A stretch of 29,713 bases of DNA, taken from positions 1 to 29,713 of the IMG/VR virus record IMGVR_UViG_3300015373_000033; one strand, 5' to 3'. This DNA comes from a virus. The notes beneath the pieces were generated by a model, which saw only the letters and a program-made list of their open reading frames with translations, was not told the origin of the DNA and made no database searches. The translations under genes and the position numbers were made by a program. This document shows, in pieces, positions 4,513 through 20,260 of the stretch; position 1 is the stretch's first letter, and each line of letters begins with the position of its first letter.

Positions 4513-4964
4513 CCGCCCTTCCCAGTCCGTTTGCCTGACGGCGGCGAACCACCAGTGACCGGGCCGAGCCCGTGCCCAACCAGCCCCTGGGTGAACATCC
4601 CGAGGAACGCCGTCGACCGTGAATCCTGGTAATCCTCCTGGTCACGCTCGAGCGCATGACCGACGATCCCGTGCAGGATGGCGAGCCGGAACGCCGGCTC
4701 CATCTCGACATAGGTGTCGTCGACTTCGGTGAACGCAGGGATCTGGCCGCTGACCGCCAGGTTGAACACGAACAGGTCCGACCGCAGCCGGCTGGCCTCG
4801 AGCATGGTCAGGTTGAGCGCACGCAATAGCGACAGGTCGTCATAGCGATAGCCAGGAACGACGTCCTGCAGCAGCGTGCGTGCGTCTTCGACGTAATCAG
4901 CCACGCTATTGAGCGTGGGCTGATCCTTGTCGGAAAAATTGCCGTGGTATGCAGGACTTGCCAC
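4509..4964 (-). CDS. Putative adaptor / neck protein, GTG start
   Basis: 151 residues starting at GTG 4964. GAGGAG (complement of 4971-4976) lies six bases upstream and is a strong ribosome binding site, so this start is well supported. The segment YRYDDLSLLRALNLTMLEAS resembles the N-terminal helix of phage adaptor proteins (Y-w-D--Ll--lN-a). A second helical part (FRLAILHGIVGHALERDQED) is followed by a glycine-rich tail. It opens the adaptor-fibre operon just after the coat gene. The start codon and SD sit in a perfect hairpin (see 4964-4993). Confidence 0.65.
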   Translation of the reverse strand: MASPAYHGNFSDKDQPTLNSVADYVEDARTLLQDVVPGYRYDDLSLLRALNLTMLEASRLRSDLFVFNLAVSGQIPAFTEVDDTYVEMEPAFRLAILHGIVGHALERDQEDYQDSRSTAFLGMFTQGLVGHGLGPVTGGSPPSGKRTGKGG

Positions 4965-4993
4965 CCTAGGCTCCTCTGGCGAGGAGCCTAGGG
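4964..4993 (-). promoter_or_regulatory. Perfect hairpin holding the SD and start of the 4509-4964 gene
   Basis: Arms 4964-4976 and 4981-4993 are a perfect 13-base inverted repeat with a four-base loop. On the minus strand the 3' arm contains GAGGAG and reaches the first base of the GTG start. No T-run follows, so it is not a classic terminator. RNA read through from the coat gene would carry the whole hairpin and hide the SD; RNA started at the promoter just upstream (start near 4978, in the loop) would lack the 5' arm. Confidence 0.7.
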
Positions 4994-5017
4994 GGAAAGT
5001 CTTAAGAAACGCTTAAG
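4985..5017 (-). promoter_or_regulatory. Late promoter with CtrA-like box TTAA-N7-TTAA
   Basis: TTAA at 5002-5005 and 5013-5016 are separated by seven bases. On the minus strand the proximal CTTAAG is followed by ten bases and TAGGCT (4990-4985), a plausible -10. The arrangement is shared with 8102-8134 and 16643-16691. Transcription would run left into the adaptor-fibre operon, starting near 4978. It lies directly after the coat stop. Confidence 0.6.
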
Positions 5018-5019
5018 GC

Positions 5020-6027
5020 TCAGTTCAGGACGATCTGGGCCTGCGCCAGGGCGGTGTTATCGACCACCTGGTAGCCATAGACCTGCAGACCCCGGAGGAT
5101 CTGCCCGAACGTGAGCTCGCTGCGCAGCGTCTCCACCTTGCTGATCTGCGAAGCAAACGTCAGCGCGTGGGCATGTCCCGCGTAGACCGGTTGCTCGCCG
5201 GCCGCAAAGTTGGTGGCGTCCGTCGCACTCGAGGGCAACAGGTTGGAGATGTAGATCGTGAACCGATCGATCTGACCCAACCGCCCATTGCGCAGCATCG
5301 AGGTGCCGTCACCCGACACATAGACCTGCCGGAGCTCGGACTGCTTGATGTAGCGACCGGCGGCCGCCGACATCACCACCCAGCGACCCTGCTCTGGGAT
5401 GTTCTGCTCATCGAGCACCTGGCCGAGCCGCAACAGGACGTCGGTGATGCTGATGTCAGTGCCGAGAACCGGATAGCCTTTCACCGCCAACGGCGTGCCC
5501 TTGACGCCGAGATTGAGGTTGCCGGAGATCACGCCAGCAGCCGCACCGCGGTTCTTGGCGTTCGCCTGCACCACAATGCCGCCGAGGACGTCGCGATCGA
5601 CCACGATCTTCAGCTGCTGGGCCGCATCGTCCGACCACATGCTGAGGATGTTGAGATCCGACTGCACCTCCATCACGTCATCGAGAATCAACGAAAAATA
5701 TTTCCCGATGCCGATATACAACTCCACCGAGCCACCGGACGGACGATCGAGCGCGAGCAAGCCGTCAGCCAGGTAGTCGCGGATAGTGACCGTGGGCTTG
5801 GTGCGAATCTTCACACGATCGCCCATGTTTGCAATCTCGCCCTCGTAGTCGGTGTTGCTGATCGCTGCGAGGACGGTGCTCGCATAAAACTTCTCGACCA
5901 ACTTAGCACTCCAAATTTCCGGAATGAATCCAGTAGCTTGGAGGGTATTGGCGGTACTGCCAGTCGGATAAAGTGCAGGAGTACTGCCAGCAGTGGCAAT
6001 ACCAAACCCCGTGCTGGGAATAGGCAT
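5020..6027 (-). CDS. Major capsid (coat) protein
   Basis: 335 residues. The sequence has the look of an HK97-fold coat protein of the kind found with P22-like portals: an N-terminal arm, then FIPEIWSAKLVEKFYASTVL, the strand-turn MGDRVKIRTKPTVTIRDY, a helix with DDAAQQLKIVVDRDVL, and later GRWVVMSAAAGRYIKQ and a C-terminal VYGYQVVDNTALAQAQIVLN. The gene directly follows a proline-rich coiled-coil scaffold-like gene, the standard phage order. It has a hairpin leader (6031-6056) whose 3' arm contains its SD. High expression is expected. Assignment rests on context and fold-like pattern. Confidence 0.85.
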   Translation of the reverse strand: MPIPSTGFGIATAGSTPALYPTGSTANTLQATGFIPEIWSAKLVEKFYASTVLAAISNTDYEGEIANMGDRVKIRTKPTVTIRDYLADGLLALDRPSGGSVELYIGIGKYFSLILDDVMEVQSDLNILSMWSDDAAQQLKIVVDRDVLGGIVVQANAKNRGAAAGVISGNLNLGVKGTPLAVKGYPVLGTDISITDVLLRLGQVLDEQNIPEQGRWVVMSAAAGRYIKQSELRQVYVSGDGTSMLRNGRLGQIDRFTIYISNLLPSSATDATNFAAGEQPVYAGHAHALTFASQISKVETLRSELTFGQILRGLQVYGYQVVDNTALAQAQIVLN

Positions 6028-6030
6028 TGA

Positions 6031-6056
6031 GGTAGCCCCTCTGTTTGGGAGCTACC
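6031..6056 (-). promoter_or_regulatory. Leader hairpin over the SD of the coat gene
   Basis: 6031-6036 (GGTAGC) pairs with 6051-6056 (GCTACC); after one mismatch two further G-C pairs close a loop of about eight bases. On the minus strand the SD AGAGGGG (6042-6036) lies in the loop side and 3' arm, eight bases before the ATG at 6027. It could pace coat translation or protect the mRNA end. It is the third such hairpin in the left arm. Confidence 0.55.
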
Positions 6057-6086
6057 CCATCAGTTCATACCTGGCGCAGCCCCCGG

Positions 6087-7124
6087 TTAATCCCGGATGC
6101 GCCCTTCTCTTTGAGCTGCGAAGATATCTGCCTCGGTACGAGCCCACTCGGCCTCGCGACCGAGAAAAGCCTTTCTCCGATTCAGTCGGTAAAGCTCTGC
6201 GATCTGAGCGCGTGTGTAGGTCGGCTTGTCGGTCGGCAACGAGGCACTGCCTCCAGTTGCCGGTCGGGCGCGACCAGGAGCCGCCAGGGTGGCCAGGGGT
6301 ATCGCCGGCTCCCTAGGCGGTACTACCGGGCTGGGAGAAGGCTCTGGCGTGTGACCTGTAGCTGCTTCCTCGTTAAGGAAGCTTTCGAAGAAATGCGCCA
6401 CTCTAGGGGCAGAGCCGGCTGAAATGGCGTCATTCAACAGCGTCTGTCTAACACGACCAGAAAGGACGTCAATACCTAACAGCCAGCGGTGCCAGCGCGG
6501 ATTGCGATCGATCTCGCGGAAATTCGGCACCCTGGCCTCGACCGCGATATCCATCGCCCGCCGGTCCTGCTTGGCCAGCCGCTGCCGAAGCTCCTTGTTC
6601 TGCTGCTCGAGTGTCTGGATGTGCGGAGACACCGTCTGCAGTGCCGCTCGAGCAGCGACGTCGAGCAAATCACGGCCGTAATTCTGCTCATCTTCCTTCG
6701 TCAGATACTGCCGGGGCTTCGGGGATGGTGTGCGTCGTTGTGGCTCCGAAGGCTGTCTAGCGACAACGTCGTTGAAGTACTTCTCCTGCAGTTCGCCGAG
6801 ATCTTGCTTCAGTTGCTCGTTTTCTGCGCGTTCCCGCCCTTCCTTCGACAGGGCGCGGCTCTTCCAAGTGTTCGAGTTCGGATCGGCGTCTTCAGGTGAT
6901 TCGGGGGCGGCTGGCTGCGCAACAGGTGCCGGCGGAGCTTGGGTCGGGGGGGCTTCACCAGGCGAGGTCGGCACCTGCGCAGCCGGAGCGCCGGGACCGG
7001 GCTCCGGAGTTTGGGAATATAGTGCGTCAACGGCCGCCGCGCGCTTGCGCACGGCTTCCGGAATGTCCTTGGGATCGTACGACAGCTTGGCTGCCGGTTC
7101 GGCGTCTACGACAACATCAACCAT
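6087..7124 (-). CDS. Capsid assembly scaffolding protein
   Basis: 345 residues, no cysteines noted, rich in Pro, Ala, Glu, Gln and Arg. Residues 40-80 are a Pro/Ala linker. Residues about 95-130 (KEGRERAENEQLKQDLGELQEKY) and 165-195 (LEQQNKELRQRLAKQDRR) are coiled-coil-like. The C-terminus is highly charged and basic-acidic mixed (YRLNRRKAFLGREAEWARTE), as in scaffold tails that bind coat protein. The gene directly precedes the coat gene, the classic scaffold position. Its ATG overlaps the previous gene by eight bases. Composition and position, not homology, support the call. Confidence 0.75.
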   Translation of the reverse strand: MVDVVVDAEPAAKLSYDPKDIPEAVRKRAAAVDALYSQTPEPGPGAPAAQVPTSPGEAPPTQAPPAPVAQPAAPESPEDADPNSNTWKSRALSKEGRERAENEQLKQDLGELQEKYFNDVVARQPSEPQRRTPSPKPRQYLTKEDEQNYGRDLLDVAARAALQTVSPHIQTLEQQNKELRQRLAKQDRRAMDIAVEARVPNFREIDRNPRWHRWLLGIDVLSGRVRQTLLNDAISAGSAPRVAHFFESFLNEEAATGHTPEPSPSPVVPPREPAIPLATLAAPGRARPATGGSASLPTDKPTYTRAQIAELYRLNRRKAFLGREAEWARTEADIFAAQREGRIRD

Positions 7125-7332
7125 TCTTGGCTTTCTCCAACGCTTGGAATATCGCCTTGCACTGCTGGGCGTGCCCCTGCGCGCGCTGCAGGTTGTCTGG
7201 CGGACTGTCGACCAGGGTCTCGTACTGGCGCTCGGTGTAGTCGGCGAACGCTGTGCAGAAACCCTGAAATGCCGACGGCGAGGCGTTCCGCAGGAAACGC
7301 GCGTGTTTCTCCAAATCGATCAGCGTGCTCAC
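7117..7332 (-). CDS. Small helical protein of the head-assembly operon
   Basis: 71 residues, mostly helical (MSTLIDLEKHARFLRN, then DYTERQYETLVD, then AQQCKAIFQALEKAKNG). Start overlaps the preceding stop (ATGA) and the end overlaps the scaffold start, so translation is coupled. A longer reading in another frame over the same DNA is Arg-rich and unlikely. No function recognised; small helical proteins upstream of scaffold genes are usual in this phage type. Confidence 0.6.
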   Translation of the reverse strand: MSTLIDLEKHARFLRNASPSAFQGFCTAFADYTERQYETLVDSPPDNLQRAQGHAQQCKAIFQALEKAKNG

Positions 7333-7610
7333 TCATCACCATCGTTGTCCGGCGGCATCAGCGCCGTTGGCCCGCGCGAGGGAGCCTGACCCATCGGTAC
7401 CGGGGGCGCGGGCTCATCCATGTCCGGCTCTGGTTCCGGCGCAGAAGGCTTGGGATAGCGATTCGCCATCCCTTGCATGGGATCACCCCCGGTCAGCGTC
7501 TCGGAGCCACCAGGGCCTCTCCTTTGCTCGCTGGCACCCTTCCCGACGTGGGTGGTGATCCCGCCTCGCCCGATCGGCGTGAGATCCTTCTTGAATGGTC
7601 TACGTGCCAT
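7329..7610 (-). CDS. Small Pro/Gly-rich virion-operon protein
   Basis: 93 residues from ATG 7610 (MARRPFKKDLTPIGRG). The N-terminus is basic, the middle Gly-rich (GGITTHVGKG, then GGSETLTGGDP) and the tail acidic and proline-rich (PEPEPDMDEPAPPVPM, ending DNDGDE). It is probably disordered. It overlaps the preceding gene by 11 bases and the next by four. Function unknown; likely a minor structural or assembly factor. Confidence 0.55.
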   Translation of the reverse strand: MARRPFKKDLTPIGRGGITTHVGKGASEQRRGPGGSETLTGGDPMQGMANRYPKPSAPEPEPDMDEPAPPVPMGQAPSRGPTALMPPDNDGDE

Positions 7611-7818
7611 AGGGATCAAACCCTCCTGGTCCGATCGGCCCGACAATGCTGGCCCCGCGGATGCCCATGTCAGGTCCAGTGGCAAACGGCGTACCGCCCT
7701 TGCCATACTCCCGGGTAGAAGTCGGCTTGATCCGCGGTGGACCCTGCACCGCCTTGGCCGGATCAAGCATCTTCGGACGCCCGAGCGGTCGGGGCGTGCG
7801 CGGAATTATCGGTGCCAT
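7600..7818 (-). CDS. Small Pro/Gly-rich protein
   Basis: 72 residues, beginning MAPIIPRTPRPLGRPKMLDP and ending PIGPGGFDPYGT. Low-complexity and likely disordered. The ATG overlaps the previous TGA as TGATG. It forms a run of three such short proteins with its neighbours, between the 8102-8134 promoter and the scaffold gene. No recognised domain. Confidence 0.55.
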   Translation of the reverse strand: MAPIIPRTPRPLGRPKMLDPAKAVQGPPRIKPTSTREYGKGGTPFATGPDMGIRGASIVGPIGPGGFDPYGT

Positions 7819-8060
7819 CAGCGTGCGCTCGTGCGACCGGGCTGCTGCGACTGCGCCCCGGAGAAGCCGAACATCTTGCCGTTGCCACCTTCGGCGAACT
7901 TCGGCCCGGGAGCCGAGCTCGGATCCTTGCCGGTATTCCCCGGCTTGTCGGGGCCAGCTGCCTGCTTGCCGAACATATGACCGTCGCCGCCCTCGGCGAA
8001 CGTCACGTCGTGCTGGGCTTCCTTCTTGGTCGTATTGACCGAGAGCTTGTTAGCGCGCAT
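7818..8060 (-). CDS. Small protein with duplicated FAEGG-(D/N)G-(H/K)MFG motif
   Basis: 80 residues. FAEGGDGHMFGKQAAG (about residues 21-36) and FAEGGNGKMFGFSGAQ (about 55-70) are two copies of one motif, each followed by a Pro/Gly segment. Proteins with one or two such motifs recur next to podovirus coat and portal genes; their role is not known to me. GGAGG (8068-8072 complement) lies seven bases upstream of the ATG and sits in a hairpin. First gene of the assembly-coat operon. Confidence 0.6.
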   Translation of the reverse strand: MRANKLSVNTTKKEAQHDVTFAEGGDGHMFGKQAAGPDKPGNTGKDPSSAPGPKFAEGGNGKMFGFSGAQSQQPGRTSAR

Positions 8061-8067
8061 AAAAAAT

Positions 8068-8101
8068 CCTCCACGACCGTTGCAAGGTTGCGTCGTGGAG
8101 G
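8068..8101 (-). terminator. Terminator-like hairpin that also carries the next gene's SD
   Basis: A perfect 10-base inverted repeat (8068-8077 with 8092-8101) with a 14-base loop is followed on the minus strand by ATTTTTT. That is a terminator shape for RNA coming from the lysis operon. The 3' arm is also the GGAGG SD of the gene starting at 8060. The promoter at 8102-8134 would start near 8095, inside the 5' arm, so its own RNA could not form the full stem. Confidence 0.65.
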
Positions 8102-8134
8102 AAGTTAGGCGCTAAATCTTAAGAAATTGTTAAG
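8102..8134 (-). promoter_or_regulatory. Late promoter with CtrA-like box TTAA-N7-TTAA
   Basis: TTAA at 8119-8122 and 8130-8133, seven bases apart. On the minus strand CTTAAG is followed by ten bases and TAACTT (8107-8102) as -10. The box overlaps the TAA stop (8130-8132) of the 60-residue gene. It would drive the assembly-coat operon. Same layout as 4985-5017. Confidence 0.6.
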
Positions 8135-8312
8135 GCGACCTGGGAACGTCGACCCGATGCTCGCGAGTCATCTCTAACCCCAGCCGGTAAACGACATGGC
8201 GCAGATGGTGCCAGAGCGAGTGGGCGAGCTCACCCTTCGCCTCAAGCTCCTGGAAATCCTCCAGAGCGTGCCGCGCATGCCGGTAGGCATGCCGTAAGTT
8301 CTCATCACTCAT
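8130..8312 (-). CDS. Small helical His/Arg-rich protein
   Basis: 60 residues from ATG 8312, which overlaps the previous TGA (ATGA). Helical, His-rich: LRHAYRHARHALEDFQELEA, then LAHSLWHHLRHVVYRLGLEM. A longer in-frame extension upstream would cross the holin-like gene and is not used. Last gene of the lysis module; its stop lies in the next promoter. Function unknown. Confidence 0.55.
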   Translation of the reverse strand: MSDENLRHAYRHARHALEDFQELEAKGELAHSLWHHLRHVVYRLGLEMTREHRVDVPRSP

Positions 8313-8527
8313 GGCAGCTTCGGCATCCGAGGTGCCCCGCCGCCGACCAGGATGCTGATCAGGTAAATCAACGCAATCAGCAAGATCACCACCCAGATGC
8401 CCTTCTTCACCATCTCCGGGATCGGGTAAATAAAGCTCTCGATCACCCAGATCGCCAAATAGACGATCCCGGCCAGGATGATCAGACCCACCAAGAACCA
8501 CAAAATTCCAATTGCGATCTCAGCCAT
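8309..8527 (-). CDS. Two-TM membrane protein, holin candidate
   Basis: 72 residues with two hydrophobic segments, about 5-29 (AIGILWFLVGLIILAGIVYL) and 43-62 (GIWVVILLIALIYLISILVG), joined by a short loop with charged residues. Strong SD (AGGAGG) before the ATG at 8527. Size, two spans and the nearby endolysin and spanin-like genes suggest a holin. Similar small two-TM proteins of unknown role are also common in phages, so the assignment is tentative. Confidence 0.6.
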   Translation of the reverse strand: MAEIAIGILWFLVGLIILAGIVYLAIWVIESFIYPIPEMVKKGIWVVILLIALIYLISILVGGGAPRMPKLP

Positions 8528-8536
8528 GTTGGCCTC

Positions 8537-8758
8537 CTATTTATCGGCCGTCGCTGCTTTCACAGCCCACATTGCAGCATTCTCGTAGTGAGTCATTGCC
8601 AGCGCCCAGCAACGGATAACTTCGCCTTTGAAATCAGTATCGATCTGACCCTGATTGCAGAGGTCGATGAGTTCGGCCGTCTTAACCTTGATCTGACCAA
8701 CCAGATCATCCTTCGACGGATTGAAGTCCAAACGAACGCGAGTTGTTCCCAGTGTCAT
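8537..8758 (-). CDS. Acb2/Tad1-like small protein, putative anti-CBASS nucleotide sponge
   Basis: 73 residues from ATG 8758; an upstream in-frame extension would overlap the methyltransferase gene. The N-terminus RVRLDFNPSKDDLVGQIKVK is followed by a helix TAELIDLCNQ and a C-terminal helix ending CWALAMTHYENAAMWAVKAA. This two-helix pattern with a terminal (A)L-M----E-A-MW-VKAAT is what I associate with the Acb2/Tad1 hairpin domain. Characterised Acb2 proteins bind the cyclic nucleotides made by CBASS and so block that defence. Position next to a DNA methyltransferase fits an anti-defence pair within the lysis module. The family call is from memory of the pattern; function in this phage is inference. 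Confidence 0.6.
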   Translation of the reverse strand: MTLGTTRVRLDFNPSKDDLVGQIKVKTAELIDLCNQGQIDTDFKGEVIRCWALAMTHYENAAMWAVKAATADK

Positions 8759-8762
8759 TGGT

Positions 8763-9323
8763 TCACTCCCAGCTAATGCGATCAATGGTCGTTGGACCCT
8801 TGTACCCTCTTTGCCACACGAACCAAGCGAACGGCATTGCACTCGATGCCTTCGGTCCCTCCCAGCCCTTCCTGTGCATCATCGGCAGGCGGTTGCGAAA
8901 CACATGAATGCGCGCCAGGCCGGAGTGCTCCAGGATGTCGGTACGCTTCACACTCTCCAGGAATGCCAGCCGCAGCAACATGATCACCAGCGGACTAAAT
9001 TCGAGTGCCTTACGAACGAATGCTTCCGCCAGCTGATATGGCGGATTGGTCACAACTGCGTCAGTCGTCCGATGACCAGCAGTCAAAAAATCGATGCCTG
9101 ATAACCCGCAACCGTATTGATGCAAATCCGTGGCAAACACCTCGTGTCCGTGATCACGGAGAACCTTGACAATCGACCCTGGCCCGCACGCCGGTTCCCA
9201 CACAGAATGAGGGAGACTCTCGACGCGCAAGAGCGCCTCAACGGCGCAAGCCGGAGTTTCGTAGCAGTCATCACCACGATCCTTGTAAGAATGCTGTCCT
9301 GCTTGGGCGGATTTATCGAGCAT
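8763..9323 (-). CDS. SAM-dependent DNA (probably N6-adenine) methyltransferase
   Basis: 186 residues. Motif I is WEPACGPGS (residues 42-50), which binds S-adenosylmethionine; FATDLHQYG (63-71) fits the acidic motif II; VTNPPYQLAE (91-100) is the catalytic motif IV of amino-methylating enzymes. Order I then IV with no separate recognition domain is typical of short phage orphan methyltransferases. Target sequence cannot be read. It may protect phage DNA from host restriction or alter promoter methylation. It overlaps the spanin-like gene by 11 bases. It lacks the length and architecture of the host cell-cycle enzyme CcrM. Confidence 0.85.
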   Translation of the reverse strand: MLDKSAQAGQHSYKDRGDDCYETPACAVEALLRVESLPHSVWEPACGPGSIVKVLRDHGHEVFATDLHQYGCGLSGIDFLTAGHRTTDAVVTNPPYQLAEAFVRKALEFSPLVIMLLRLAFLESVKRTDILEHSGLARIHVFRNRLPMMHRKGWEGPKASSAMPFAWFVWQRGYKGPTTIDRISWE

Positions 9324-9696
9324 CTTTCAACCGTTGTTCTCGTTGTTCGATCTTCTCTATCGATAAACTGTAGCCAGCCCGCGCATTGCGTGCCCCGGTT
9401 CCCGCACGATGTGGAGCCTGCGGATCATTGGGGTCTTTCATCCACACTCCGAACACCAGACCTATGTGGTCCTTGTATGCTTTGTCCAATGCCTCGCGAT
9501 CAAGCGCCAGCAGGTGTTCCTCGTATTTTGAAATCGGTAGATCATCCACATAAGACCGCGGTGCTGCCTGCGCTTCCGGCACCTCCCACCGCCCCGACAA
9601 ATAGCCCGCACACGCCAGTAAAATTAGCAAAATAATGATAATTGCCACCGTGAGCATCACACGGTGGCCGATGTCCATCTTATCGAGCGGTTCCAT
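9313..9696 (-). CDS. Membrane-anchored periplasmic protein, spanin-like candidate
   Basis: 127 residues. A short cytoplasmic N-terminus with basic residues precedes a strong membrane span (about 13-33, VMLTVAIIIILLILLACAGY). The remainder is soluble and charged, with helical segments (KYEEHLLALDREALDKAYKD and LSIEKIEQREQRLKD). The shape, an N-terminal anchor plus periplasmic helix, and the position directly after the endolysin fit an inner-membrane spanin. No overlapping lipoprotein partner gene was found, so a different envelope role remains possible. Confidence 0.5.
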   Translation of the reverse strand: MEPLDKMDIGHRVMLTVAIIIILLILLACAGYLSGRWEVPEAQAAPRSYVDDLPISKYEEHLLALDREALDKAYKDHIGLVFGVWMKDPNDPQAPHRAGTGARNARAGYSLSIEKIEQREQRLKDAR

Positions 9697-9705
9697 CTCG
9701 GTGCC

Positions 9706-11226
9706 TCACGCCGACTCGGAGCCGGCGTGAGGCCAGTTCGCGTCCATGTAATCCTGCACCTCTTGGAACATCGCGTCAGCGTCTTTTTTCAGTTCAGTCT
9801 CATGTCTGTTGATAGGCCCGTAGTGATTGCACAAGTTGCGCAACGTAAGCCCGCACGACTCAACAGAAAACGCAGGCTGGTTCTTACACAGATCCTGGAA
9901 CTGCTCGCCACGTCCGCCGCCGTAGCTCGTCCAATCCTCCGAGCTGCACGACACACCTTCCGAGAACGCCTCCAGATAGCCAGGAGAATCCCCCCGCAGA
10001 TATTCATCCATGAGATCATCAAACTCAGGATCGCTGGCACCGGCAGCATCGTAACTCGTCTGGAAAGCGCCGGCTTCAGTCGTGGTATCGGCTGGACCGT
10101 AATAGCCTGGCGGCACCGACTGATCTCGACCGCAGCAGTGCTCACCAGACGACTCGCGCATGCCGTGACCCAACATCAGGGCATAGAGATGCCTCAAACG
10201 ATCCACGGCACTGCCGTCGGTCCCTTCGTTCGACATACCGAGCTTGTTGAAGTCATTCTTGTACACGTTGAACACGTCCTTGTCGGAAGACGTGCGCGGT
10301 CGCGACATCTCGATCACACCCGGATGGTCGACCTTGAGCTTCTTGTAAGATTGCGCGAACGCAAGCGCCATACCTTGCGTCCACCCCGGAGGAGCCTCCC
10401 CTCTGTCATCCCAACCATAAGAAGCAACCGCTGAATTTTTAGCGATATTTTTGATCGCTTTCTGTTGTGCAACCGTCAACGCTCCAGGTGGAGGAGCCGG
10501 TGGCGGCAACGGCTTCTTATCATCATAAAGCGCCTGCCAGGTCTCTGGACCGACCACACCGTCGATCTCCAATCCGCGCGAAGACTGATAGCGAATGACG
10601 TTATCCTTGGTGATTGGCCCGAAGTCACCATCGACCACCCCGCTGAAATGCGGGATCATGCGCTGCAGATCCATCACATCTGGGCCTTCATCACCTTCTT
10701 CAAGCGTCGGCCGATCCTCAACATCAATCTCCGGCACCTCCCACCCGCGCACCCACATGTAGCCGATCACGGTGCTTGGATCGTAAGTACTGACATTGAC
10801 GCAGTTGCTTTGATTCCCACCCCTGCAGCGCAAGTTACCGTTATCGTCCCACTCCTCAAACATGGTCACATGCCCGCCGCCTTCGCGGGTCATGACCACG
10901 ATCGTTCCAGGGACTGGAGAACCAAGCTTCACGAAACCGGGGTCGCTCGCAAAGGACTGCGCCCACATCCACTTGTCAGTATCCGTTGGTCCGAACGGAC
11001 CGGAGATGCCTTCTTTGGTGCAAGCCGCTAAACAGAAAGCCGTACAGACTCCACACCAAGCAATACTATCGTCGTCGTAAATCGAGGCATATTCAGCTTG
11101 TTCCGGAAATTTTCGCCCGATATAAGCAGCCATCGCTTCGATCTTGGGATTGCTGCCGTTCTCGTACTCACTCAAACCGGTGATGGCGCGCATCACTTCC
11201 AACCAAGGTGGAATATCTTGCGACAT
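9706..11226 (-). CDS. Multidomain endolysin: CHAP/NlpC-like plus peptidoglycan-binding plus C-terminal domain
   Basis: 506 residues with GGAG upstream. Residues 1-165 resemble a CHAP/NlpC-P60-type amidase of the TIGR02594 kind: NPKIEAM, catalytic cysteine C58 in AWCGV, H119 in GGGHV, and GNQSN (137-141). Residues about 178-234 fit the peptidoglycan-binding type 1 domain (GPDVMDLQ, DGDFGPIT, DGVVGPETWQAL). After a Pro-rich linker (235-250), residues 250-506 form a third domain containing GHGMRESSGEHCCGRD and GAFQTSYDA, reminiscent of chitosanase- or lysozyme-like muralytic folds, with E351-region acidic residues possibly catalytic. Three-part endolysins of this length are larger than usual. 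No signal peptide. The start lies within the preceding gene (59-base overlap). Confidence 0.8.
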   Translation of the reverse strand: MSQDIPPWLEVMRAITGLSEYENGSNPKIEAMAAYIGRKFPEQAEYASIYDDDSIAWCGVCTAFCLAACTKEGISGPFGPTDTDKWMWAQSFASDPGFVKLGSPVPGTIVVMTREGGGHVTMFEEWDDNGNLRCRGGNQSNCVNVSTYDPSTVIGYMWVRGWEVPEIDVEDRPTLEEGDEGPDVMDLQRMIPHFSGVVDGDFGPITKDNVIRYQSSRGLEIDGVVGPETWQALYDDKKPLPPPAPPPGALTVAQQKAIKNIAKNSAVASYGWDDRGEAPPGWTQGMALAFAQSYKKLKVDHPGVIEMSRPRTSSDKDVFNVYKNDFNKLGMSNEGTDGSAVDRLRHLYALMLGHGMRESSGEHCCGRDQSVPPGYYGPADTTTEAGAFQTSYDAAGASDPEFDDLMDEYLRGDSPGYLEAFSEGVSCSSEDWTSYGGGRGEQFQDLCKNQPAFSVESCGLTLRNLCNHYGPINRHETELKKDADAMFQEVQDYMDANWPHAGSESA

Positions 11227-13872: not shown

Positions 13873-14081
13873 CAAAGCCCAGCGCCGGTCGCCCCCGACG
13901 GACCGGTCCCGCCTGTGACACCCGTAGTCGCCAGCGTGGTGTCGGCCCCGAGAACTTGAAATTCCTCGCCTGGACCCTCGCTCGCCACCAGGTTGGCGAT
14001 CGCCTGGGCGCGCGAGTTGGCCACCACCTGGTAGGTCACCACCGGTCCGAGCTTGCGCGCCTGGATGTAAAACGTCGCCAT
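13872..14081 (-). CDS. Small protein with collagen-like tail, paralogue of next gene
   Basis: 69 residues: MATFYIQARKLGPVVTYQVV, then a helix ANSRAQAIANLVAS, PGEEFQVLGADT, and a tail of TG-TG-PSG repeats. Aligns along its length with the 75-residue protein upstream (M--FY---R---P---V-A----AI---l-s--PGE---V). A good SD (GGGGAGG) lies before the ATG. Possibly a decoration or fibre-tip protein; the glycine tail could interact with other collagen-like proteins here. Confidence 0.6.
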   Translation of the reverse strand: MATFYIQARKLGPVVTYQVVANSRAQAIANLVASEGPGEEFQVLGADTTLATTGVTGGTGPSGATGAGL

Positions 14082-14083
14082 CG

Positions 14084-14311
14084 CTACCTCCCCATTGCGC
14101 CAGTCGAACCGGTCGAACCCGTCGAACCCGTCGAACCCGACGTCCCGGGCGGTGCCGCCGCCGGCACTGGCTCGGTATCCATCACCTCGATCGACTCGCC
14201 GGGAGCAGCACTGTCGAGCACCGCCTGGATGGCGTGCTGGTAGGTCTCGCCCGACGCCTGCACGATCTCGATCGGCATGGTCCTGCGGATCTTCAGATAG
14301 AAATCAGGCAT
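14084..14311 (-). CDS. Small protein with collagen-like tail
   Basis: 75 residues with SD GAGGAGGG. MPDFYLKIRRTMPIEIVQAS, helix YQHAIQAVLDSAA, PGESIEVMDTEP, then Pro/Ala and a GSTGSTGSTG tail. It is the tandem paralogue of the 69-residue gene that follows; the tails differ in repeat unit (GST versus GTG/PSG), so the heads are probably the older shared part. It directly follows the portal gene. Function unknown. Confidence 0.6.
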   Translation of the reverse strand: MPDFYLKIRRTMPIEIVQASGETYQHAIQAVLDSAAPGESIEVMDTEPVPAAAPPGTSGSTGSTGSTGSTGAMGR

Positions 14312-14326
14312 CTAGCCCTCCTCTGG

Positions 14327-16636
14327 TTAACCTGGTCCGCCCTGGATCGGCGGCGGCCGCATCCCTGGCTGCATCGGCCGGCGCTGCAACCCGACCACGT
14401 TGCCGGGGAGCGCCTGCTGGTTCGACATCGGCGTAGGCTGGTTGCCTTGGGCTTGGCGAGCTCCCTCAGCCATGTTTCCGGGCGGTCCGGGAGGGGCACT
14501 AGGGGGACCACCGCCTGGGCCGCCAGGGGGCGCTCCTAAGCCCGGTGAGCCTCCCGGCGCTTCCTCACCCGGCATCGCGGCATGTGAGGCAAGGAACCCG
14601 GCGGTGAGCTCGGACGCGATCTTCTGCACCCCCAGTTCGACACCAGCCTGAATGCCCTCGTCGACCTTCTGGCTGATCGCCTTGTTCTGCTCGTTCTGCT
14701 CCTGCTTCTCCTGCTTCTTGGCCAGCACCTCGTCGGACGGCACCACCTCCTCGCCCTCGAGACCGATGGTCTGCGACACCGAACGCAGCACCACGCCGCG
14801 GCCCTTGATCCCCATGATGCCAAGATCGACCGGGTTGTTGGTGTGCTGCAGGAACTCCAGCTGCCTCTGTCTCTGCGTCTCGCGCTGGACCGCGACGTTG
14901 ACGCCCTGGACGTAGATGTCCTCTTGGCCAGTGAGCGCGCCGGAGGTGTCGGTGAGCAGCACCAGGTCGGACAGTTGCTCGAGCGCGACCTCGAAAATGT
15001 CGCGGTCAATATTGGCGGCAACGGTCTGCAGGATCTTGCTCGCGTTGCCCATCAACATCGCGAGCCCGGATGCCGTGCGTCCCGCGCCGCCCGACGCCTG
15101 ACCGCCGATATACTTCGGGATCGCCGACACGTCATCGGATAGTTCGACGAGCGCCTTGAAGACCGTCAGTAACTCCTGGGCATTGCTCTGCGGCTGGAAG
15201 AACTCGACCGGCGGCTTGGCATTGTTGCCAACCGGATCGTCGGTGACATGCCAGCGTTTCCAGGGATAGAGCTCGTCGACGTTATCCTCCGGCCTGCACC
15301 TGCTGTCATTGATCACCACCTGCGGTCCGCTGGAGATACTCATGTTGTTGACGAGCGAGCGCAGCGTGGAGTTGGCGGCGTCCTGCAGGTCAGCGATCAG
15401 ATCGATCAGCGAATTGCCGACCACGGTTCCAGGCACTTTTTCGAACGAGGTAATGAAGTAGTTGTGCCGTGCCCGGGGCGATGGCGATAGGTTGGCCTTG
15501 ATAACGTGGCTGCCGATGCAATAGGCGTCGATGTGGTAGTCGCGGATCGGGTCGGAGATCCCGGGCATGCCGTACTCTTGCAGGATCTCGCCTTGGACGT
15601 TGCCGTGGAACTCCATTTGGGTGATAAGGCCAGACCGGTTCCATGCAGGGTTCTCCCGGTTCTCGAGCACAGCCCGCTCGGCGTCGGTGGTGTCCCAGTT
15701 GTCATAGAGCCCACCGCGGCCGTACTCAGTCAGCACGGCGCGCACCTCGTCCTGATTGAAACCGGGCAGGTCGAGCATGTCGTTGAGCTCGGTGCGGGTG
15801 AGGTTGGACTTCTCGATCACCGCGGCGTTCGCGATGTCGCTCACCCCGGGAGTGAACCAGATGTCGAACGGCGACACCCGGTCCCACATCATCACCGGGT
15901 TCTGCTTGATGGTCGGCTTGCTGTTCTCCCACACGATCTCCGGGATGAGCTTGACGGTGGGGCCTTTGAGCACGGCGAAGGGGAAGATCGGCAAGTCGAC
16001 GATGAACTCGGCGAGCGCGTGGTAGAACATGCCGTTGCGCAGGAACTCCTCGACCTTGTCCTCGGACTCCTTGGCCTGCTTCTGCGCCAGCGTGCGGGCG
16101 GCGTCCTCCGCCGACTCCATCAGCGCCAGCCGGCGGGTGCGCAGGGCGTCCTCCGGCGGCGGCTGCCCGGTGGCCTGCTGCACCATCTGCTGCTCATGCT
16201 GCATCAGCTGGTTGATCTTCTGGATGATCTCGTCCGGCACGTCGGGATCGGCGGGAGGACGGATCGCCCAAGGTCGGTCGGCTCCGAGATAGACATCGCG
16301 CAACAGGGAGGACGCTGCCCGACATTTTTGCGCAGACAGACGCGCATAGATCTCGGAGCCGCCGAACTTTTTCACCTCCTGCATCTTGTTCGGCGAATAC
16401 TGGCCGTTGAACGTCCGCATGGCCTCGAGCAAACGATTGCTCCAACCAGCCGCGGTGTTGCGGTGGTTGCGGAAGATCTCGAACTGACTCTTGATGTAGC
16501 CGACCAGCTGCGGCGGAGCCGCGACCGGCGGGGCTGCTGCCGCCGCCCGCGCCTGCTCCTCCGCCAGCAATTGTGCCTCCAACATCGCTGGAGGCACCAC
16601 CCGCAATACGCCCTGGGGGCCGAATCCGTCTGCCAT
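14327..16636 (-). CDS. Portal protein, P22-like long form
   Basis: 769 residues. N-terminal helices QLVGYIKSQFEIFRNHRNTAAGWSNRLLEA with a Gly-Y-S-pattern (FNGQYSPNKMQEV) followed by KFGGSEIYARLSAQKCRAASS fit the entry to portal cores of large podovirus portals. Later parts are the long acidic-helical region (residues 110-190), a beta core with TPGVSDIANAAVIEKSNL, and the helical segment VNNMSISSGPQVVIND. The C-terminal 70 residues are Pro/Gly/Met-rich. It forms the DNA channel at the capsid vertex. ATG 16636 has no SD and lies at the predicted transcription start, so the mRNA may be leaderless. Divergent from the terminase genes. Confidence 0.85.
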   Translation of the reverse strand: MADGFGPQGVLRVVPPAMLEAQLLAEEQARAAAAAPPVAAPPQLVGYIKSQFEIFRNHRNTAAGWSNRLLEAMRTFNGQYSPNKMQEVKKFGGSEIYARLSAQKCRAASSLLRDVYLGADRPWAIRPPADPDVPDEIIQKINQLMQHEQQMVQQATGQPPPEDALRTRRLALMESAEDAARTLAQKQAKESEDKVEEFLRNGMFYHALAEFIVDLPIFPFAVLKGPTVKLIPEIVWENSKPTIKQNPVMMWDRVSPFDIWFTPGVSDIANAAVIEKSNLTRTELNDMLDLPGFNQDEVRAVLTEYGRGGLYDNWDTTDAERAVLENRENPAWNRSGLITQMEFHGNVQGEILQEYGMPGISDPIRDYHIDAYCIGSHVIKANLSPSPRARHNYFITSFEKVPGTVVGNSLIDLIADLQDAANSTLRSLVNNMSISSGPQVVINDSRCRPEDNVDELYPWKRWHVTDDPVGNNAKPPVEFFQPQSNAQELLTVFKALVELSDDVSAIPKYIGGQASGGAGRTASGLAMLMGNASKILQTVAANIDRDIFEVALEQLSDLVLLTDTSGALTGQEDIYVQGVNVAVQRETQRQRQLEFLQHTNNPVDLGIMGIKGRGVVLRSVSQTIGLEGEEVVPSDEVLAKKQEKQEQNEQNKAISQKVDEGIQAGVELGVQKIASELTAGFLASHAAMPGEEAPGGSPGLGAPPGGPGGGPPSAPPGPPGNMAEGARQAQGNQPTPMSNQQALPGNVVGLQRRPMQPGMRPPPIQGGPG

Positions 16637-16642
16637 GGAACA

Positions 16643-16691
16643 CGAGTAGCGGACAAACCTTAAGAAAATCTTAAGACTTGCTCGCTAGCTT
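16643..16691. promoter_or_regulatory. Divergent late promoter pair sharing one CtrA-like box
   Basis: TTAA at 16660-16663 and 16671-16674 with seven bases between. Leftward, CTTAAG is followed by ten bases and TACTCG (16648-16643); rightward, by ten bases and TAGCTT (16686-16691). Predicted starts coincide with the portal ATG (16636) and the small terminase ATG (16699), neither of which has an SD. One box could therefore drive both packaging directions. Confidence 0.6.
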
Positions 16692-16698
16692 CCCGGGC

Positions 16699-17241
16699 AT
16701 GACCGATCTCGATGAAACCACCATGGCCGCGCTGGCGCGTGACCTTGTGCTCAATATCCGCAGCTACAAAGAGACCTTTGCGGAGTTTGGAATCGACGAA
16801 AATGACTACCAACGGATTGAAAAGAATGAGTTCTTCCGCAAGGTCCGCGAGCAGCTGATCGCCGAGTGGAACGCGATCGGATCGACCGAAGAGCGCATCC
16901 GCTTCCAGAACCTGGCCTACTTCGAAAAGCTCGGCCCGGTGATCGCCCGCCGCGCCATGCAGCCGGACGCCAATCTGTCGGCATCGACCGATGTCGCCAA
17001 GGTGGTGATGCGCGCCGCCGGCATCGGTGAGGACAAGGGCGACAAGCCTTCCAACGAACGCTTTGTCATCACCATCAACCTCGGCGGCGAGAGTGAAACC
17101 TACGACAAGGCGATCGACATCACCCCCGACGATCCCCCGCGCGGGAAACAGCAAGAGCTCGCACGCGAGCGCGAGATGCAGACCCCACGCAAGCGTAGGA
17201 CGCGCAAGCAGCTGCCTGACCTGGTGCTGAAAAATGAGTGA
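16699..17241 (+). CDS. Small terminase subunit
   Basis: 180 residues from ATG 16699 (MTDLDETTM). An N-terminal helix-turn-helix-like part (ALARDLVLNIRSYKETFAEF, then GIDENDYQRIEKNEFFRKV) matches the usual start of alphaproteobacterial phage small terminases. It is followed by WNAIGSTEERIRFQNLAYFEKLGPVIARR and a long basic C-terminus (PRKRRTRKQLPDLV). It would recognise the packaging site and load the large subunit. No SD; see the divergent promoter. A TTG start seven codons upstream is possible but less likely. Followed by an eight-base overlap with the next gene. Confidence 0.75.
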   Translation: MTDLDETTMAALARDLVLNIRSYKETFAEFGIDENDYQRIEKNEFFRKVREQLIAEWNAIGSTEERIRFQNLAYFEKLGPVIARRAMQPDANLSASTDVAKVVMRAAGIGEDKGDKPSNERFVITINLGGESETYDKAIDITPDDPPRGKQQELAREREMQTPRKRRTRKQLPDLVLKNE

Positions 17242-17413
17242 TTACGCCATTACTTATGCCAACGACGGCAGGTCGCTGGTGCTGCACCGCATCGACTGCC
17301 CCGACGTGCGTGCCCAGGCCAAAGCCGGCGAGCCGGTGCTCTCGCTGTTCGACTGCCAGCGCGAGCCCAAGGAGGGCGAGGTCAAGCGCCACTCCTGCCT
17401 GAAAGGGCACTGA
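17234..17413 (+). CDS. Small protein between the terminase genes
   Basis: 59 residues (MSDYAITYANDGRSLVLHRI at the start), overlapping the small terminase end by eight bases and the large terminase ATG by one (TGATG). Contains three cysteines (22, 41, 55) and several histidines, possibly metal-binding. Coding is supported by the tight stop/start coupling on both sides. No family recognised. Confidence 0.6.
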   Translation: MSDYAITYANDGRSLVLHRIDCPDVRAQAKAGEPVLSLFDCQREPKEGEVKRHSCLKGH

Positions 17414-18870
17414 TGGCAGTCATCTACACGGCACCGCCGACGGTCGCGCGGTTCATGAAGTCGAGCGCGTTCGGCCGCATCATCGCCGGCCCGGTGGGGT
17501 CGGGCAAGACCACCGGCTGCGTGATGGAGACGCTGCGGCGCTCGCTCAGTCAGGCCAAAGCCACCGACGGCTATCGCTACACCCGCTGGGCGTTCGTGCG
17601 GCAGACGCTCAAACAACTGAAAGACACCGTGCTCAAAGACGTGCAGTCCTGGCTGGTGGGCCTGGGCGACTGGAAGGTGTCGGACAACACCTACTACCTC
17701 GACTTCGGCGACGTGAAATCAGAGTGGATCTTCGTGCCGCTGGAAAATGCCGAAGATCAGGCCCGGTTGCTGTCCATGCAATTGACCGGGGCGTGGCTCT
17801 CGGAAGCCATCGAGATGAACTTCGACATATTGGCCCCCGTTTCGGGCCGTATTGGCCGCTATCCAAGCGGCAATCGCGGTGTCCCGAGCTGGTACGGCAT
17901 CATTGCCGACACCAACATGCCAGTCGAAATGGGTGAGTGGCATAAATTTATGACCGAGCCGCCGCCGAACTGGCAGGTCTTCATCCAGCCAGGCGGCATG
18001 TCGCCGGCCGCTGAGAATCTCAATTATCTGCTGCAGACCGAAGAGACGAAAGTACTTCCCATCAACCATCCGCTCCGGCTCGCGCAGGGACGCAAGTACT
18101 ACGAGCAGTTTCTGCAGATGTACGGGAGCGATCACCCGTGGGTACGTCGGTACGTTGACGCGCAATACGGCGACGACCCTTCTGGCGAAGCTGTCTTTAG
18201 AGCGAGCTTCAAGCCATCGTTCCATGTCGTACCCGATACCCTTGTGATACCAGGCTATCCACTGATCGTAGGACAGGATTTCGGCCGGAACCCCTGGTCC
18301 GTCATAGCGCAAGTCGACCATCTCGGACGGTTGCTGGTTCATGAGGAAGTCCCCGCTACCAATGTCGGTCTCGAGAAACACGTCGAACAGCAGCTACGGC
18401 CCCGCCTGTTCCAAGAGCGTTTCATCGGTTCCAAAGTCATCCTGGTCGGCGATCCATCGGGCATTTCCAAGGGGACGATCGCCGAGGAGACCAGCTTTGA
18501 AGCACTGAAACGCATGGGCCTGCCGTGCTTCCCGGCTCCAACGAACGACATCGACCCGCGCTTGCGTGCGGTGGAAGCGTTGCTTGGCAAGCAGGTCAAC
18601 GGTGGACCGGCGCTGATCATCAACGGCAGCAAGTGCCCGTTCCTGGTGCGCGCCATGAGCGGCGGCTACCGCTACAAGAAACACAAGGACGGTGGCCTTC
18701 GTATCGTCCCTGAGAAGTTCGACAAGGAAGGCTTCTCGCATGTCGCCGACTGTCTACAATACATCGCCCTGGTGGTCCACGGCGGGCTGGTGCATGAGTT
18801 CGCCCGCCGGCTGACCCCGACCCGGCGAACGTATCAGCGCCCGCAGATCACCGCCGCGGGATGGACCTGA
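17413..18870 (+). CDS. Large terminase subunit (ATPase and nuclease)
   Basis: 485 residues. Walker A is GPVGSGKTT (26-34). The hydrophobic run with acidic end LTGAWLSEAIEM (124-135) fits Walker B, with E131 the likely catalytic residue. The nuclease domain has acidic positions at D289 (VGQDFGRNP), D347 (LVGDPSG) and one near the C-terminus (SHVADCLQY). It packages DNA through the portal using ATP and cuts it at headful or site ends. Length is normal for the family. Its start is coupled to the 59-residue gene. Confidence 0.9.
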   Translation: MAVIYTAPPTVARFMKSSAFGRIIAGPVGSGKTTGCVMETLRRSLSQAKATDGYRYTRWAFVRQTLKQLKDTVLKDVQSWLVGLGDWKVSDNTYYLDFGDVKSEWIFVPLENAEDQARLLSMQLTGAWLSEAIEMNFDILAPVSGRIGRYPSGNRGVPSWYGIIADTNMPVEMGEWHKFMTEPPPNWQVFIQPGGMSPAAENLNYLLQTEETKVLPINHPLRLAQGRKYYEQFLQMYGSDHPWVRRYVDAQYGDDPSGEAVFRASFKPSFHVVPDTLVIPGYPLIVGQDFGRNPWSVIAQVDHLGRLLVHEEVPATNVGLEKHVEQQLRPRLFQERFIGSKVILVGDPSGISKGTIAEETSFEALKRMGLPCFPAPTNDIDPRLRAVEALLGKQVNGGPALIINGSKCPFLVRAMSGGYRYKKHKDGGLRIVPEKFDKEGFSHVADCLQYIALVVHGGLVHEFARRLTPTRRTYQRPQITAAGWT

Positions 18871-18888
18871 CACCGGCACGCTGCTAGT

Positions 18889-18902
18889 TTGTAATTTTAC
18901 AA
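18889..18902. promoter_or_regulatory. 14-base palindrome before the basic-protein gene
   Basis: TTGTAA-TT-TTACAA is a perfect palindrome in the 44-base gap after the large terminase. An SD (AGGGAG) and the ATG at 18915 follow directly. It may be a regulator site or a weak RNA hairpin; no second copy was seen elsewhere in the window. Confidence 0.35.
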
Positions 18903-18914
18903 GGGAGCAGCAAC

Positions 18915-19295
18915 ATGAAAAAGCGCAAGAAGTCGGCGACCACCCGCCGGCCATTGAATAAAAAGACCCTGCGCCGGGTCCGCACCGCCGGCACCGCGGC
19001 ATCCTCGCGCTACACCGTTGGCGGCAAGCGCAACAAGAAGCGCAAGCCGGTGAGCGTGGCAAAGACCGCCAAGCGCAAGGCGGTACGCAAGCCGAAACCC
19101 ACTGCCAGCGTGACAGAGATCGCCGAAGCCACACAGAAGCTGCAGGAATACCACGAACCTCGAGTGGACGATCCGGGCGAGCATGTCCGAGTTATTCCCA
19201 ACAAATCTGACGAGCAACCGGGTGTGCGGGACGTGCAGCCTGTGCTGCAAGGTGATGACAGTCCCGAACTTCCCGGGGAAACCGAACCCACATAA
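18915..19295 (+). CDS. Lys/Arg-rich basic protein
   Basis: 126 residues. The first 80 residues are extremely basic (MKKRKKSATTRRPLNKKTLR, then KRNKKRKPVSVAK, then AKRKAVRKPKP), suggesting DNA or RNA binding. Residues 84-99 are helical. The last 38 residues lie in DNA that also encodes the start of the next gene in another frame (113-base overlap), which is unusual; the true end of this protein or the true start of the next one may be different. Good SD (AGGGAGCAG). Function unknown; a DNA-condensing or packaging role is possible. Confidence 0.55.
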   Translation: MKKRKKSATTRRPLNKKTLRRVRTAGTAASSRYTVGGKRNKKRKPVSVAKTAKRKAVRKPKPTASVTEIAEATQKLQEYHEPRVDDPGEHVRVIPNKSDEQPGVRDVQPVLQGDDSPELPGETEPT

Positions 19296-19629
19296 GTGGT
19301 GCGCCCACGCGCGGCCCGGTAAAGGCTGCAGCATTTACGCGGATCGCCCGCAGGAATGCCGGGATTTTGCTTGCCTGTGGTTGATCGACGGCCGCATCCC
19401 GGACTACTGGTTCCCGAAATGGTCGAAGATCGTGATCGCGCCACATCTGGCGGAGAAAGAAAAGTACGTCGCCTTCATTGTGGACCCGGCCTATCCAGGA
19501 AGGTGGCGGGAAGAACCGTGGTTCAGTGATCTGAAGAAGCTGGCAAAGGCGGGGATCGACGGGTCGCTGGGGCAAAAATGGACTTCATTCGTTCTTGTCG
19601 GAGACGATCGCATTCAAATCGGAGCCTGA
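19183..19629 (+). CDS. YkgJ-like cysteine-cluster protein
   Basis: 148 residues. VCGTCSLCCKVM (residues 14-25) is a C-x2-C-x2-CC cluster; KWCAHARPGKGCSIYADRPQ and ECRDFACLWL carry four further cysteines. This is the signature of the YkgJ/UPF0153 group, which probably binds zinc or an iron-sulfur cluster. Function of the group is not established. It ends 11 bases before the convergent regulator gene. Confidence 0.7.
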   Translation: MSELFPTNLTSNRVCGTCSLCCKVMTVPNFPGKPNPHKWCAHARPGKGCSIYADRPQECRDFACLWLIDGRIPDYWFPKWSKIVIAPHLAEKEKYVAFIVDPAYPGRWREEPWFSDLKKLAKAGIDGSLGQKWTSFVLVGDDRIQIGA

Positions 19630-19640
19630 ATTCCGACCAG

Positions 19641-20255
19641 TCAGCGACCGCGAGCGGGTTGTAGATCGGCGCGTACTGCCATACGAGCTCCATCGTCGAC
19701 TTGAGATCCATTGGCCGTCTCCACCTTGTGGAAGATGATGTCCATCAGCTTGCGGCGGTCCTCCGGCAGGAACTGGTAGCCGTAGCCCCACAAGGTCGAG
19801 ACTTTAATCCCGAATGGCTCGAGCCGCTTGCGGATCGAACAGATATGCACACCTATCGACACCCCGGTCATGGTGCCGGCGAGCCGCTCGCGCAGCAACG
19901 TCGGGTACTGCAGCAGCACCAGCAGCAAGCTGATTTCGGTCGGCGTCAGGTGGAACACCTCCTGCATGGCCACGAACAAGCGATCGCGGTTCTCGCTCAC
20001 CAATCTCGAGAGCTGCAGCGCACGCTGGTCGCGTGGAAACCCGGGTGGCCAGTCGTCGCGCGGCAGGTCGAGCAGCTTGCCGGCAGCCTGGGCGATGCGC
20101 AGGCGTTCGCGCACGATGTCGGACGACAGCTTGATCGCTCGAGCGATCGCGCGCAGCGGCACACCTTCGTCCGCCAACCGGATGGCGATATCGGGGATGA
20201 CCCGTTCGGGGTCAAACCCTTGGGATCCCACTTGGGCTAGTGGTTCAGCCGCCAT
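19641..20255 (-). CDS. Late-gene regulator with HTH and OmpR/CtrA-type winged helix
   Basis: 204 residues from ATG 20255; a TTG three codons upstream is possible. Residues 22-58 (AIRLADEGVPLRAIARAIKL) look like a resolvase-type HTH. Residues about 101-168 fit the OmpR/PhoB C-terminal winged helix: LTPTEISLLLVLLQYP, then IGVHICSIRKRLEPFGIKV, then TLWGYGYQF, corresponding to the LT--E--lL-lL, recognition helix (v-vhI--lRkKL) and GyGY hairpin of the family. The recognition helix closely resembles my memory of CtrA (VFICKLRKKL). There is no receiver domain, so phosphorylation control is absent. It is the best candidate to bind the TTAA-N7-TTAA boxes. No SD; predicted leaderless. Confidence 0.75.
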   Translation of the reverse strand: MAAEPLAQVGSQGFDPERVIPDIAIRLADEGVPLRAIARAIKLSSDIVRERLRIAQAAGKLLDLPRDDWPPGFPRDQRALQLSRLVSENRDRLFVAMQEVFHLTPTEISLLLVLLQYPTLLRERLAGTMTGVSIGVHICSIRKRLEPFGIKVSTLWGYGYQFLPEDRRKLMDIIFHKVETANGSQVDDGARMAVRADLQPARGR

Positions 20256-20260
20256 GACCC

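Follow-up and report, generated by a model that had tools for sequence, protein, structure and literature searches.

The whole of the IMG/VR virus record IMGVR_UViG_3300015373_000033 (29,713 bases, hereafter the window) represents a family of soil phages in which the capsid and packaging genes seem to be turned on from promoters that resemble those of the bacterial cell-cycle regulator CtrA. For this late switch, the phage most likely uses a small CtrA-like protein of its own that lacks the phosphorylation switch. According to the proposed mechanism, the phage would make a receiver-less, CtrA-like activator, and this protein would bind tandem TTAA half-sites 11 bp apart, which substitute for the -35 element. 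The bound activator would recruit the host RNA polymerase at three late promoter regions, and four directions would be served in this way, namely the portal, terminase and head operons and the genes that follow the capsid gene. The portal and terminase mRNAs would begin at or beside their ATG. At the other two promoters transcription would start inside a hairpin, one arm of which would otherwise mask the Shine-Dalgarno sequence and would be left untranscribed, and hence read-through RNA would be translated poorly and box-started RNA well. Taken as a whole, this explanation is considered fairly probable. As features of the sequence, the class of promoter, its geometry and the hairpins have good support; the phage protein as binder and activator, the start sites and the effect on translation are what we infer.

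The counts that follow were made on 81 loci, namely the window and 80 of 204 relatives of its large terminase, and on a second set of 30 further loci retrieved via the regulator and not via the terminase. Duplicate sequences were removed before distinct N7 pairs, TA offsets, regulator-upstream regions and box-plus-TA sites were counted. The window was found to hold exactly three TTAA-N7-TTAA boxes (Table 1), at the positions that an earlier sequence-only reading of this DNA had given and nowhere else, while 100 dinucleotide shuffles yielded a mean of 0.06 and never more than 1. Across the 81 loci, a spacing of seven bases accounted for 75 raw pairs, and every other spacing from 0 to 24 for 1 to 12. 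As distinct pairs, 50 were left at spacing 7 against 117 over the 24 other spacings, and the regulator-fetched loci gave 27 at spacing 7 against 81 at other spacings. A chance origin of the boxes in the window was rejected on the shuffles and the spacing counts. The extended minus-strand consensus proposed in the sequence-only reading, CTTAASNNTTTCTTAAG, fits all three sites with zero mismatches, and the TTAAG-N9-CTA pattern that it described is present in all four promoter directions. Two of its other arguments fared less well. TTAA had been called rare, but no depletion exists once dinucleotide content is taken into account (33 copies seen, 38.1 expected). The sites had also been placed in gene gaps, which is correct for two of them and not wholly so for the box at 8119, as it overlaps the stop codon of the open reading frame (ORF) 8130-8501. 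Gene-gap position was dropped as evidence, because pairs of other spacings are intergenic about equally often (64/117, compared with 32/50 distinct N7 pairs, as judged with a crude gene caller).

Conservation in relatives was then a point on which the earlier reading could have failed, and both the spacing and the places of the boxes are kept. In six relatives (G001, G002, G006, G008, G009 and G010, the first being almost identical to the window) all or nearly all of the contig was examined. The exact box was present at the start of the head operon in 6/6, at the portal/small terminase (terS) divergence in 5/6 and after the capsid gene in 5/6. One exact N7 pair in G006 sits in a terminator-like stem and is probably there by chance.

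Table 1. Boxes, late genes, leader hairpins and regulator in the window.
Feature	Position	Strand	Details
CtrA-type box, promoter after capsid gene	5002..5016	-	TA 4989-4990; predicted +1 4978; kept in relatives
CtrA-type box, head-operon promoter	8119..8133	-	TA 8106-8107; predicted +1 8095; kept in relatives
CtrA-type box, common to divergent portal/terS promoters	16660..16674	both directions	(-) TA 16647-16648, predicted +1 16636 = A of portal ATG; (+) TA 16686-16687, predicted +1 16698, one base before ATG 16699; kept in relatives
Portal (head-tail adaptor), first gene past box	14327..16636	-	phrog_332, E 2.7e-53
Presumed small terminase (terS), ATG 16699	16678..17241	+	named by position beside terL; phrog_36773, function not annotated
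Large terminase (terL)	17413..18870	+	phrog_2, E 1.4e-22
Major capsid protein, in head operon starting 8060	5020..6027	-	phrog_267, E 4e-47
head1, 80 residues, first gene of head operon	7818..8060	-	
g5, first gene past box 5002	4509..4964	-	phrog_23601, E 1.4e-18, function not annotated
g5 leader hairpin	4965..4992	-	12-bp stem, 4-base loop at predicted +1 (fold, covariation); 3' arm GAGGAG (4971-4976), directly before GTG of ORF 4509-4964
Head leader hairpin	8067..8102	-	3' arm GGAGG (8068-8072); ATTTTTT next, then ATG 8060
Regulator P0001, 204 residues from ATG 20255	19641..20255	-	convergent to terminase genes

The distance from the box to a downstream TA step is equally regular. The near group comprises 31 distinct sites, and on 34 of its 62 strands a TA step was seen 11 bases past the box; the second commonest offset was found on 9 strands, and the control spacings gave 2/48. 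If the TA step is taken as -12/-11, the box would reach from -38 to -24, and TTAA-N7-TTAA occupies the -35 position, the +1 itself being predicted from the TA step. Of the starts proposed in the sequence-only reading, 4978, 8095 and 16636 stand as predictions and 16699 shifts to 16698. The same arrangement is described for Caulobacter promoters activated by CtrA. The available excerpts of PMC4287350 place the 5' base of the full motif near -35, with two promoters at -39, and according to those of PMC11264516 most CtrA-induced promoters carry a single site at the -35 position; near-misses such as CTAA-N7-TTAA are likewise found there. The difference is that here the regulon is that of a phage and the likely binder has no receiver domain. 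Additionally, two promoter-pattern scans of 2.9 million viral contigs, run with extended patterns modelled on this promoter, returned 40 and 24 stretches of DNA, 33/40 and 23/24 of which carry homologues of the late genes of the window (several stretches share a contig). The matches are therefore nearly confined to the phage family of the window, and as the patterns were built from this family, the result shows rarity elsewhere and not the identity of the binder.

The 85 distinct box-plus-TA sites were sorted by downstream gene, and the TA step was used to place +1. At 10/12 portal and 11/14 terS sites an ATG has its A at -2 to +4 of the predicted +1, compared with 0/16 for g5 and 2/19 for head. 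With the ATG at the predicted +1, no leader would be left on the mRNAs of portal and terS, and at least one leaderless example is found among the Caulobacter CtrA-activated promoters (PMC4287350 and PMC11264516, in the parts available). At the g5 and head promoters the predicted start lies inside a hairpin. Pairing between the Shine-Dalgarno sequence and bases that precede the predicted +1 occurs in 16/16 g5 and 13/19 head leaders (the partner in the head leader of the window being CCTCC), whereas this was the case in 0/12 portal, 0/14 terS and 2/21 unassigned sites. As the predicted start is inside the hairpin, RNA started from the box would lose the blocking arm, and the hairpins may block the translation of read-through messages. 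Neither the leaderless starts nor these hairpins had been noted in the sequence-only reading.

Folding and covariation of these leaders were also quantified. The g5 leaders have a mean z of -3.8, with 14/16 at -2 or lower, and the head leaders a mean z of -1.78, with 8/19 at -2 or lower. Across the g5 alignment, pairing in the named 14-pair stem amounts to 87.1%, and slid versions of it reach at most 53.8%. Both sides of the stem changed in 24 cells, compared with 8.3 in shuffles (0/500 as high), and RNAalifold detected two-sided changes in 7/11 pairs. The presence of at least five pairs bridging +1 is not a discriminating measure, being common in portal (10/12) and terS (9/14) as well; pairing of the Shine-Dalgarno sequence is the sole measure that separates g5 and head from portal and terS. 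It is possible, although somewhat unlikely, that these inverted repeats are terminators or stabilisers of the 5' end of the transcript instead of start-dependent translation locks. A stem at the 5' end of an RNA is able to protect the transcript, the stem of the head leader in the window is followed by ATTTTTT and so resembles an intrinsic terminator, and 6/19 head leaders have no Shine-Dalgarno pairing upstream of +1; the pairing seen in all of the g5 and most of the head leaders, and stem letters that vary while pairing is preserved, speak against such functions.

A translation lock that depends on the start site has a precedent in phage T4. Inhibitory helices at the start region are described for the T4 genes e, soc, 49 and I-TevI in the available part of PMC3014915, where the RNA from the late promoter of gene e lacks the 5' arm of the helix hiding the ribosome-binding site. 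By prediction, this arrangement (a start inside the helix that hides the ribosome-binding site) is shared by 16/16 g5 and 13/19 head leaders. Phage, activator and genes all differ from those of T4, and here the hairpins are predicted and stand at head and post-capsid genes.

The candidate activator is encoded convergently to the terminase genes. The sequence-only reading had described it as a protein of 204 residues with HICSIRKRL at the recognition helix, an OmpR/CtrA layout and no receiver. Length, motif and missing receiver were confirmed, and the layout stands less firmly, as the OmpR-type DNA-binding domain (PF00486) scored 24.3 bits in Pfam, just below the cut-off of 26.2. The whole ORF 19641-20264(-) allows a 207-residue reading from TTG 20264, with a helix-turn-helix (HTH) at about 25-60 and a winged helix at about 84-165. 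Homologues were present in 59/81 loci. The family alignment (A1) has 41 sequences drawn from 43 distinct ones, the window copy replacing two near-identical ones and one more near-identical sequence being omitted. In it, an N-terminal block around RLADEGVPLRAIARA is followed by a DDWPPG linker and by the winged helix at the C-terminal end, and a short HTH stands in the N-terminal part where CtrA has its receiver. No receiver domain was found in Pfam scans of the window regulator or of the 41 members, 39/41 of which match PF00486 at 0.01. With NCBIfam at 0.001, the CtrA model matched 11 of the 41 members, TctD 22 and one PhoB model 19; the window regulator matched PhoB alone. PhoB/OmpR-type activators act on 11-bp direct repeats. 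They likewise combine a PF00486 winged helix with tandem half-sites 11 bp apart that overlap -35, and the window regulator differs from them in having an N-terminal HTH instead of a receiver.

The likeness to CtrA that the sequence-only reading had proposed is seen in distant members, of which L052 is the clearest, and not in the diverged window copy. The recognition helix of L052, KIVDVFICKLRKKL, is near-identical to that of CtrA, KIIDVFICKLRKKL, and those of L064 and L046 are similar. In NCBIfam, L052 matched CtrA at 6.8e-10 and the next model at 6.6e-4. The cut-off of the CtrA model NF045991 (350 bits) was not reached, the best of eight members scanned singly being L052 with 39.1 bits. When L052 was compared with 72,556 plasmid records, 41 matches were obtained, and 15 of the 30 listed are labelled CtrA; 38/41 belong to ten genera that we take to be alphaproteobacterial. 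The window regulator gave no tblastn match in named phages, and L052 and L064 reached 29 and 27 records, from Rhodobacter, Roseobacter and Paracoccus and one 'Bacteriophage' record. Against PDB sequences, L052 had no match at 0.1, and the CtrA domain and the L064 domain retrieved just OmpR-type regulators and chance matches. The structure model of the regulator has a mean predicted local distance difference test score (pLDDT) of 83.6 and is high over approximately residues 21-190. Foldseek found nothing at 0.001, the lowest E values being 0.11 for PDB and 0.0011 for viral models, and structure comparison gave 1kgs with Z 7.9 and a root-mean-square deviation of 2.8 over 82 residues. The fold alone cannot choose between OmpR and MarR types, because MarR-type winged helices score equally high. 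Two further proteins of this kind were noted. A 104-residue protein of the Rhizobium phage RHph_TM3_14A (L088, 34654-34968) matches the family profile over the winged-helix part alone, with E 5.5e-7, and a 174-residue homologue (34%) in Microvirga solisilvae (L117, 9992-10516) lies among genes resembling an unrelated prophage.

The co-occurrence of regulator and box was tabulated by hand for the records with a visible portal/terS gap and a determined regulator status. Truncated records (such as L005, L011, L050 and L071) and records without a portal gene beside terL were omitted, and the gap of L031, in which the ORF rule set the portal start too far upstream, was judged separately. In the narrow table (L001-L050, the 50 best-ranked of 80, plus L189) the exact box was present at the portal gap in 15/24 regulator-bearing and 0/4 regulator-less records (p 0.035). 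In the wider table, which adds L052, L053, L062, L063, L067 and L068, the figures were 17/30 and 0/4 (p 0.10). The four regulator-less records (L035, L036, L038 and L189), which form two clades, showed no regulator match, although they are fragments in which a distant regulator could be missed, and no exact box was found in their portal/terS gap or elsewhere in these records. Because these relatives are without boxes as well as without the regulator, the phage protein is favoured over host CtrA as the putative activator, although the test is a weak one. The sequence-only reading had proposed a late-gene circuit on CtrA-type boxes and had left the binder open between these two; the circuit is well supported by spacing, TA distance, synteny and the co-conserved regulator, and the tie to the host cell cycle that the reading added is hypothetical.

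That host CtrA is itself the activator is the main rival reading and is regarded as unlikely. In that case, an abundance of phosphorylated CtrA would turn on the late genes and so couple the lytic cycle to the host cell cycle, and the phage regulator would have another role or would tune CtrA at the boxes. Box, spacing and position do match those of CtrA-activated promoters (PMC11264516 and PMC4287350, in excerpt), host CtrA binds and regulates such sites in other alphaproteobacterial phages (PMC9437464, in excerpt), and the boxes of the window are intact even though its regulator has no CtrA-like helix. Besides the regulator-less relatives without boxes, it speaks against this reading that the 60,889 bases of RHph_TM3_14A, whose terminase is 51% identical, contain no exact box, and that the extended promoter pattern is almost confined to the family of the window, albeit with patterns derived from that family.

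Several results weigh against the favoured explanation. The recognition helix of the window regulator, VSIGVHICSIRKRL, differs from that of CtrA, and the protein weakly matches the PhoB, TctD and OmpR models, with no CtrA match at 0.01. The link between regulator and box rests on two regulator-less clades, and p becomes 0.17 if they are counted as two. The exact portal-gap box is missing in 9/24 (wider table, 13/30) regulator-bearing records, and the TA signal is weak in the distant loci (among 96 strands, 13 at offset 11 and 12 at offset 12). The Microvirga contig encodes a regulator homologue and has no box, with up to one mismatch allowed, in 20,483 bases. No exact box was found in the genomes of RDJL Phi 1, RcPescado and Paracoccus phage R3, whose CtrA-like proteins ('CtrA', gp59 and 'CzcR-like', respectively) have a CtrA-type recognition helix and no receiver in the alignment, with flanking domains different from those of the window regulator. 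Finally, the region upstream of the window regulator has no exact box.

Near-misses or other motifs were seen in records without an exact box. Nine of the 13 regulator-bearing ones have a one-mismatch pair such as CTAA-N7-TTAA, a form of the CtrA site that is reported for fliQ in the available part of PMC11264516, and the pair in the portal gap of L019 has a spacing of 8. A common motif, CGTTTAAWWTTTGTTATGCTG, replaces the box in the portal gap of L041 (6195-6265), L043 (1170-1245) and L044 (1820-1895); L041 and L044 also have a clearly altered recognition helix. The portal/terS gap of one regulator-less clade has a different inverted repeat, ACCCTAT...ATAGGGT (L036 4895-4950, L038 3445-3500 and L189 7895-7990), to which some other regulator may bind. 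Scanning L189 for direct repeats produced no useful result.

Of 69 regions upstream of the regulator gene, 6 contain an exact box (L152, L164, L165, L168, L182 and L033), compared with 0 or 1 for six other spacings, which suggests that the regulator may be autoregulated in some lineages. Autorepression could leave the same trace, and a CtrA-like protein without a phospho-switch might also act mainly as a repressor or competitor that occupies the boxes early and excludes host CtrA or the polymerase until it is removed. This is judged very improbable, as the boxes lie at -38 to -24 and the excerpts of PMC4287350 associate full motifs near -35 with activation in Caulobacter, and half motifs over the -10 with repression.

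Activation by a phage-encoded protein would distinguish this family from the systems already described. The literature found on CtrA sites in phages was PMC9437464, on 'lytic deferment', in which TTAA-N7-TTAA likewise occurs at phage promoters of alphaproteobacterial phages. Host CtrA acting on some phages is thus already known. In the present case a phage family seems to have its own CtrA-like factor wired to structural genes: the sites serve capsid, portal and terminase genes and are kept together with a phage-encoded CtrA-like protein, and the term 'phage-encoded' does not occur in the text of PMC9437464. A literature search that covered few subscription journals retrieved no title or abstract on a phage-encoded CtrA-like late activator. 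The promoters are regular enough for start sites to be predicted almost to the base. If the proposal is true, it would provide a phage route for uncoupling from, or hijacking, the alphaproteobacterial cell-cycle regulon, a natural experiment on the joint retention or loss of a regulator and its sites, and an additional phage lineage with T4-style late-promoter hairpins. More tentatively, and with rather more doubt than confidence, it is suggested that the lineage took the DNA-binding half of CtrA, shed the phospho-switch and took host-style CtrA promoters as the basis of its late programme. The genes for capsid and packaging would then fire without awaiting phosphorylation of host CtrA, targets of CtrA in the host might likewise come under the factor, and the hairpin lock would stop head proteins from being made from read-through RNA.

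Regarding its origin, the window is probably a phage fragment, and no DNA-level relative of positions 1-25000 was found among 50,697 phage records. The nearest named phages by large terminase (50.9%) are the four Rhizobium phages RHph_TM3_14A, TM27A, TM27B and TM29, and the host is therefore probably an alphaproteobacterium, perhaps of the Hyphomicrobiales. The underrepresentation of GANTC, the CcrM site, across the whole window (73 matches, 132 expected) fits such a host, and few of these sites lie in 17000-20000. Moreover, a 186-residue ORF (8763-9323) in the late minus-strand block matches a PHROG DNA methyltransferase family over its C-terminal part only (199-382 of 458).

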